Part shown: positions 18,762 to 36,221 of the stretch, piece by piece
Numbering within the stretch: position 1 is the first letter of the stretch
Layout: every line of letters starts with the position of its first letter
Assembly: GCF_003201675.2 (NCBI RefSeq)
Contig: NZ_CP029287.2
Coordinates: forward strand, 558,001 to 622,000
Source: Metallosphaera hakonensis JCM 8857 = DSM 7519
Lineage (GTDB): Archaea > Thermoproteota > Thermoprotei_A > Sulfolobales > Sulfolobaceae
Length of the DNA stretch: 64,000 nucleotides
Direction of reading: 5' to 3'
The notes under the pieces: model-generated
Told to the model about the DNA's origin: nothing
Database searches by the model: none
What the model saw: the letters and a program-made list of their open reading frames with translations, nothing else
Made by a program: the position numbers and the translations under genes

Positions 18762-19866
18762 TCACATTCTAAACCTTAACTTGCCCACCATTCCGCTAAA
18801 GGTCTTCCTTACCCACTCGGCCTCTGGAATTTCCTCACCCACTAGGTAAACCTTGGTGCCATATTTCTCGGCTTCCTGAACCATTTTTTCATTCTCCGGA
18901 TTTCCGTCATCGAAAACTATTAACGTATCCACAGCGCCCATTTGTAACGCCTTATTTATTTCCTCTTTTCCGTAGACGACTAGGCCATCGTCCTTAGCCA
19001 AATGATACTTGAGCTCCTCAATGAAGTCTTCAACCTCAATGTATTTCTGGTTCTTCAAGAGGTCCCTGGACTTCATCACCATCTCCCTAAGTCCGGCCTC
19101 GCCCTGATATCCTATGTCAACTAAGGGTAACATTATGAGTTTCTTCAATCTATAGTCGATATAATCTGAGTCGTAGAAGTCCTTTTTTGCATAGCCTGGG
19201 CCACCTAACAGTACTCCCTTCAACCTGCCTGACTCAAGGATTGGGAGGAAATAGTTGTTGACCTTTTCTCCGAAACTCTTGAGGAAATCGTGATAGAGTT
19301 CCTCGATTATTCTGTCAATTCTTCTCTGGCTTTGTCCTCCCATCATATGTTTTCCTGGAACATAGCCTTCCATCTCCTCTAATACTTCTATCCTTGAACC
19401 CCTCAGTACTCCAATAGTTCCTTGATCTCTTTCCACGATTAATAGACCGAAAACCTCAGACACTTCTACCATGTCTTCCAAGAACTCAGTATGGAATTGC
19501 TTGTCTGTCCTATAGAAATAGATTGTAACTTTTTCTGGAGGGGAGAACATATAGCACTTGAACTCGTTAGTATCGAAGTTCTCTCCACAGAATAGAACTA
19601 ACCCGTTCTCAGGGACTTTGTTCATGGTCACTAATCTATCTATTGCTGTCGTAATAGCGGACTCAACGGCATCTCGGGTTCTTTTTAACTTAATATTTTG
19701 AGAAATTGACGCCTCCTGTCGTAACATATTAACTACGTCCGACACTGGCCTACCAGGTGGTATATACAGGGACAGCAGCACCGTGGCAGGGGCACTCCAT
19801 TTCTTTAGCTCCCTTAGAAGTACCTTTAACTCTTGCCTGCTTATGAGATACTTGTCAAAGACTCAT
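18762..19866 (-). CDS. prf1: Peptide chain release factor aRF1, requires +1 frameshift
   Basis: aRF1 recognises all three stop codons and triggers peptidyl-tRNA hydrolysis. The GGQ motif is present ([11 protein letters not shown]), with the NIKS-equivalent as NIKLKRTR. The longest conventional ORF (start GTG 19781, 339 aa) lacks the family N terminus, but the missing piece [20 protein letters not shown] is encoded just upstream in the same frame without any ATG, GTG or TTG. An ATG at 19866 reads Met-Ser-Leu then UGA; a +1 slip at CTTTGAC (19860-19854) joins it to that frame, giving 367 residues. A TTTTATAAG box (19905-19897) would place the RNA start about 9 bases before this ATG. A one-base sequencing error in TTT is the alternative. 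Confidence 0.85.
19854..19866 (-). promoter_or_regulatory. Putative RF2-like frameshift site CTT TGA C
   Basis: On the minus strand the aRF1 message would begin ATG AGT CTT TGA C. The CUU UGA C heptamer is identical to the +1 shift site of bacterial prfB (RF2). The in-frame UGA is codon 4. A short match to the archaeal Shine-Dalgarno region (TGATC, then GGG directly before ATG) precedes it, but there is no internal Shine-Dalgarno stimulator between ATG and the shift site, unlike prfB. Confidence 0.5.
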
Positions 19867-20011
19867 CCCAGATCAAATTACCATTAGAAAAGAGGACTTA
19901 TAAAAGTGATGTGTATTGTGATCCAAAGATCCTATCTAAATTAGTGGTTCATTAATATACGAGTCGTCAGATACGAAAACGTTATTATTTGATTTCTAGG
20001 GATATCAAGTA

Positions 20012-20098
<87 letters not shown>

Positions 20099-20420
20099 TA
20101 CATATTTTGTTGCCTAGGTGTAATGCCTAGGATATTTTCACTTGGCTGGTAACTTTCTTGAATCTTCTGTTCCCTGCGTTACAGAGCGACCCTGGCTCCT
20201 TGTTAAAAGAGAAAATAGAAATCTCCGGTTCACATACTCTCTAAAGTCTCCATGAGCTTGTTACTTACTAAGTGGAATGGCATTTTTCAACCGAGATATG
20301 CAGCTCTATCGTTAAACCTAGGCCTTCCTATCTCCTCACGCTTGAGAGTATATTTCTTCGTAATGCTAATTTGAGTAGCAGAGATCACAGAAATATATTT
20401 GAGTAACTTCTGTATCTCTC
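20099..20420. other. Intergenic region after tRNA-Leu
   Basis: The 322 bp downstream of the tRNA contain two TGCCTAGG repeats (about 20110-20131), T-rich sequence suited to tRNA 3' processing/termination, and at the right end an ATATATTT box (20393-20400) correctly spaced for a start at 20421. There is no copy of the tRNA 3' end and no integrase, so no integrated element is suggested. Confidence 0.5.
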
Positions 20421-36162: not shown

Positions 36163-36221
36163 TGAACTTCACATAGTCTGAGAGGTGCAGTTTTTTCTTT
36201 AAGAGTGTCTACTATATAATT

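Follow-up and report, generated by a model that had tools for sequence, protein, structure and literature searches.

The gene for the class-I release factor aRF1 of Metallosphaera hakonensis is, with a probability that we put at roughly 0.87, expressed through a programmed +1 frameshift that would limit aRF1's own synthesis, the slippage and the feedback being what we infer from sequence. Slightly less firmly, though still as the probable course of events, we propose that an archaeal lineage gained this autoregulatory +1 frameshift in its sole class-I release factor, independently of bacteria, and that the stop codon at the site then drifted freely among UGA, UAG, and UAA. The following features lie in the window, i.e., the 64,000-nucleotide stretch of the M. 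hakonensis genome that was analysed, numbered from its first letter.

19866-18762, minus strand: the whole aRF1 gene, with an ATG at its 5' end and a product of 367 residues when the shift is made.
19855..19866, minus strand: short frame ATG-AGT-CTT-TGA (Met-Ser-Leu-stop); ATGAGTCTTT is invariant in 31/31 Sulfolobaceae, with a stop in every one.
19866-19864, 19863-19861, 19860-19858, and 19857-19855, minus strand: ATG, AGT, CTT, and TGA of the short frame, respectively, read from the sequence.
19854..19860, minus strand: proposed +1 shift site CTT TGA C, read from the sequence; NTT or TAT plus a stop occupies the same place in 109 genomes.
19857, minus strand: T, the base skipped at the proposed shift site; the next codon would be GAC at 19856-19854.
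18762..19856, minus strand: body of aRF1 in the +1 frame, 364 codons plus a stop, assigned by profile matches.
19779..19781, minus strand: GTG, the earliest codon of the aRF1 frame that could serve as a conventional start; the pN/pS of 0.18 upstream led us to reject it.
19867..19870, minus strand: Shine-Dalgarno (SD)-like tetramer, TGGG in the window and AGGG in the majority of relatives, occupying positions -10 to -7 relative to the slip codon.
19898..19905, minus strand: TATA-like box TTTTATAA, ~35 bases ahead of the ATG.
20013-20099, plus strand: tRNA-Leu(GAG), cognate to the slip codon CUU, divergent and ~150 bases upstream of aRF1.

The 5' end of the gene reads GATCTGGG-ATG-AGT-CTT-TGA-CAA, and two claims of the original prediction hold on the window sequence: the aRF1 N terminus has no start codon in its own frame and a stop just upstream, and a +1 shift at CTTT joins both parts. 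Just GTC TTT lies between the upstream in-frame TGA and GAC, with no ATG, GTG, or TTG in that frame ahead of the conserved N terminus in the window; with CTTT taken as a single step, an unbroken aRF1 of 367 residues is obtained, beginning MSLDKYL... and ending at base 18762. This product scores 438.5 bits against the TIGR03676 aRF1_eRF1 equivalog (cut-off 234.7), exceeds the cut-offs of all three Pfam eRF1_1/2/3 domains (PF03463, PF03464, and PF03465), and carries the GGQ motif (MGGQSQRR). It is full length, including domain 1, and its alignment with Aeropyrum pernix aRF1 (3agk) begins at residue 3. No other full-length match to a class-I release factor occurs in the 2.54-Mb single-contig genome; a second match, 30% identical across the C-terminal portion, probably represents the paralogue pelota.

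In one genome alone, such a layout is not rare and stands hardly above chance, a scan of the 64 kb having returned the formal layout without an upstream in-frame start at three places; it rises above chance because it is conserved across genomes. The two other places (short start, NTT stop, long +1 open reading frame, and no upstream start), at window positions 36196 and 43334 on the plus strand, are probably chance occurrences.

All 31 Sulfolobaceae genomes searched carry ATGAGTCTT followed by TGA (29 genomes) or TAG (2 genomes), and none has a start codon in the aRF1 frame at the 5' end. The ordinary in-frame ATG that the original prediction had named as a point against it was therefore sought in close relatives and not found, the shifted layout being kept in 31/31. 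The eleven bases GATGAGTCTTT are invariant in every one of these genomes; the longest invariant run in the remainder of the open reading frame is 3 bases. Of the 31 Sulfolobaceae genomes, 29 contain a single copy of the 15-mer GGGATGAGTCTTTGA, located at the aRF1 5' end in each, and the 15-mer is absent from 198 other genomes of the class; as a control, the reversed pattern gave 2 matches in 229 genomes. A further pattern, GGTGATNNNATTTAGY, was searched over the phylum and set aside as uninformative on aRF1, its spacing being unlike that of the aRF1 site.

Beyond this family, aRF1 5' ends were surveyed in 153 genomes (the order plus one neighbouring family), of which 109 have the shifted layout, 40 have an ordinary in-frame start, and 4 have neither. 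The shifted layout is found in 8 GTDB families, given here under the survey's own labels (f1 includes Metallosphaera, Ca. Aramenus, and Sulfolobus records): f1 31/31, f2 4/5, f4 29/29, f7 14/14, f8 25/30, f10 4/4, f11 1/3, and f12 1/1. Ordinary starts characterize f3, f5, f6, and f9, with one f9 genome (G198) having neither; elsewhere in the class and phylum, an in-frame start is present in 65/66 sampled genomes. The common plan is a start, 1-5 codons, NUU or UAU, and a stop, usually followed by a pyrimidine. Slip codons across the 109 genomes are ATT (44), CTT (39), TTT (22), GTT (2), and TAT (2); stops are TAG (77), TGA (30; the Sulfolobaceae plus G150), and TAA (2, both in f7); and 75 genomes have C, and 30 have T, immediately 3' of the stop. 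Counted as the outermost start within five codons, the short-frame start is ATG in 73, GTG in 30, and TTG in 6, with two f4 genomes having GTG in place of ATG at an unchanged position. When sites were chosen blind to starts, a start lay at most 5 codons away in 107 of 117 short frames (a count that takes in a few misassigned or chance sites), compared with 13 and 30 in the other frames. Counting against the frameshift reading, an ATG, GTG, or TTG also lies nearby in the aRF1 frame in 12 of the 109 genomes with the shifted layout.

Across families, the apparent logic is kept while the letters change. The predicted CUUUGAC heptamer accordingly stands for the window and most Sulfolobaceae and fails elsewhere, where other slip codons and all three stops are used; the 5' alignment of Sulfolobales aRF1 genes, proposed as a check, gave the same picture, with slip codon plus stop kept and UGA itself mainly confined to the Sulfolobaceae. 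To judge from the survey, the original prediction understated its case, the putative site being order-wide.

In a tree of 86 aRF1 rows (built quickly, supported by SH-aLRT values alone, and excluding f10 and G211), the layout label needs two changes. Its clustered history fits a single origin, i.e., one gain and one later loss, and the gain is readable as having followed the branching of f6, f3, f9, and two f11 genomes. The genus g65 genomes, L240 (G182), L143 (G184), L125 (G181), L245 (G183), and L241 (G185), all have one extra base between GGTG and ATT, which in 3/5 puts a GTG in the aRF1 frame, a natural loss of the shift. Four genomes, G182 and G184 (both g65), G034, and G198, lack both a usable start in the short frame and any start in the aRF1 frame, which also counts against the frameshift reading. 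In G034, GGGGG stands against GGGG in its relative G031, and a homopolymer error is possible. G198 (L227), a single-contig f9 genome, has an aRF1 without an in-frame start; its relative G199 has ATG.

The conflicting view raised at the outset, that the window carries a sequencing or assembly error of one base, could draw on the homopolymer TTT at the site. Identical letters recur in 29 further Sulfolobaceae species, 109 genomes share the logic, and an error common to 31 genomes is not credible; we rule this explanation out as the least probable of all. Scarcely better placed is translation beginning at GTG 19781, the first conventional in-frame start, with everything upstream non-coding. The codons upstream of it (alignment codons 1-24) have a pN/pS of 0.180 in the aRF1 frame, compared with 0.186 over the remainder of the gene, whereas the identical bases read in the other two frames give 1.07 and 1.68. 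Purifying selection on the N-terminal codons is thus specific to the aRF1 frame and equals that on the rest of the gene, and the GTG 19781 start, which the original prediction had put up for testing, is therefore rejected; the segment lost under such a start is moreover conserved in homologues with ordinary starts. Judged by selection, then, the N terminus is translated in the aRF1 frame.

The main rival of the frameshift accepts this translation and has it begin within the aRF1 frame at a codon other than AUG, positioned by the SD-like element, with the short frame being incidental or a regulatory upstream open reading frame. Candidate codons are GUC in the window and GUU, GUA, CUA, AUA, or UUU in relatives. 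The distance of the SD-like tetramer would suit initiation near the slip site too, and G182, G184, and G034 keep ATT TAG although they are without a short-frame start. Yet the codon ahead of UUU varies, being GCA, GCT, AGT, or GGA, none of them near-start, in 11/54 non-Sulfolobaceae sites, and non-AUG initiation leaves unexplained why both the short-frame start and a stop are retained while TGA, TAG, and TAA interchange. We thus regard it as unlikely, though less so than any other alternative. Slippage at the level of transcription, in which RNA polymerase omits one T to yield an in-frame mRNA, is considerably more doubtful. A T run does adjoin the junction (CTTTG, or GTTTTTAG in f4), but most sites have only three T (CTTTGA, ATTTAG), TATTAG in two genomes lacks even a run of three, and known transcript-slippage runs are much longer; such slippage would also need no kept stop. 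With the T runs too short, it was discarded.

Under the favoured frameshift reading, initiation would occur at ATG 19866 and Met-Ser-Leu would be read, bringing UGA into the A site. Were aRF1 plentiful, termination at UGA would yield the tripeptide only. Were it scarce, the ribosome would wait, allowing the tRNA on CUU to slip one base onto UUU; with GAC then in the A site, synthesis would continue to full-length aRF1 (MSLDKYL...). At its own early stop, aRF1 would thus compete with slippage of the P-site tRNA in a prfB-like loop, the aRF1 level setting the rate. Overlapping frames with their slip codon have been kept in evolution, with coding selection across the junction, as expected of programmed +1 frameshifting in general. 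aRF1 reads all three stops. Every shift-site stop surveyed in the 109 genomes (UAG, UGA, or UAA) is one read by aRF1, and the use of all three at archaeal sites is expected because the factor reads all three. At bacterial prfB sites, across 8,164 genomes, the stop is UGA in 98.6%, UAA in 1.4%, and never UAG (PMC12421855). This match of stop to factor is the strongest indirect sign of autoregulation.

Signals upstream bear on how the ribosome would arrive at the site. In 31 Sulfolobaceae, the bases from -39 to -33 relative to the ATG form a conserved T/A-rich block, and from the TATA-like box of the window, a leader of ~8 bases with a start site near 19874 is predicted. In f8, TATA-like boxes lie ~30 bases ahead of the GTG, for a predicted leader of ~4 bases; mRNAs of Saccharolobus (Sulfolobus) solfataricus are mostly leaderless (PMC11698992). 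Counted back from the slip codon, positions -10 to -7 read AGGG in 64/109 genomes and GGTG in 28/109, and this SD-like tetramer would stimulate the shift. The 16S 3' end contains GGATCACCTCC (read in relatives G105 and G181). In some f8 genomes (L095, L097, and L105), GGTGATC gives a seven-base match to the 16S 3' end of relatives, whereas the Sulfolobaceae SD-like element pairs only weakly with that of G105 and G181, a point against the frameshift reading, as is its spacer of 6 bases in place of the 3 of prfB. As the GTG within GGTG doubles as the short-frame start in f8, and the shift is so near initiation, one SD-like element may be shared by start selection and frameshifting.

The tRNA-Leu(GAG) gene lies near aRF1 in the window and at 10/22 other Sulfolobaceae loci scanned, and at 0/3 loci of other families; we treat this as synteny and do not count the tRNA as a functional partner of the shift.

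Genome annotations of these archaea probably give wrong N termini for aRF1. The site also offers a natural +1 cassette for genetically tractable archaea, with loss lineages (genus g65) available for comparison. As a separate and speculative observation concerning PDB 8HKU (PMC10516650), a truncated aRF1 annotation would drop the N terminus from the construct.

Programmed frameshifting in S. solfataricus is documented for another Sulfolobales gene, fucA1 (alpha-L-fucosidase) (PMC8211752), which differs from the aRF1 case in its -1 direction, in encoding no release factor, and in being full length in most other Sulfolobales. Closer is the eRF1-type release factor of Mimivirus (R726) and Megavirus (mg280), in which CUU UAG C or CUU UAA C serves as the frameshift site (PMC3521657); these genes are viral, stop readthrough is also needed, and the frameshift stop is well inside the gene. 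According to the same work, archaeal and eukaryotic homologues have no autoregulation of this kind (PMC3521657). aRF1 is unmentioned in a 2021 review of archaeal recoding (PMC8211752) and in the accessible part of a 2016 review of frameshifting (PMC5009743), and our search of the open-access literature for an earlier account of frameshifting in aRF1 found none; subscription journals could contain one. In the GeneTack survey, some prfB shifts <50 nt from the start escaped detection (PMC3711429), and closeness to the start may likewise explain why the aRF1 shift was missed.

Release-factor autoregulation by frameshifting is a textbook case in bacteria. The aRF1 site resembles that of bacterial prfB (RF2) in that (i) the gene encodes a class-I release factor, (ii) the proposed shift is +1, at CUU UGA C in Sulfolobaceae aRF1, (iii) the stop is one read by the factor itself and is followed by C, and (iv) an SD-like element lies upstream. 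It differs in that the SD-like tetramer is at -10 to -7 with a 6-base spacer, compared with AGGGGG and a 3-base spacer in prfB, and in that the site falls at codon 3 to about 6; unlike in prfB, the slip codon may also be AUU, UUU, GUU, or UAU and the stop UAG, UGA, or UAA. The protein is moreover of the aRF1/eRF1 type, non-homologous to RF2 and of an unrelated fold family (PMC3521657). An identical heptamer in a non-homologous protein makes for a sharp convergence, with stops that match the specificity of each factor, i.e., UGA/UAA for RF2 and all three for aRF1. The proposed aRF1 shift works like that of prfB, yet is no member of prfB.
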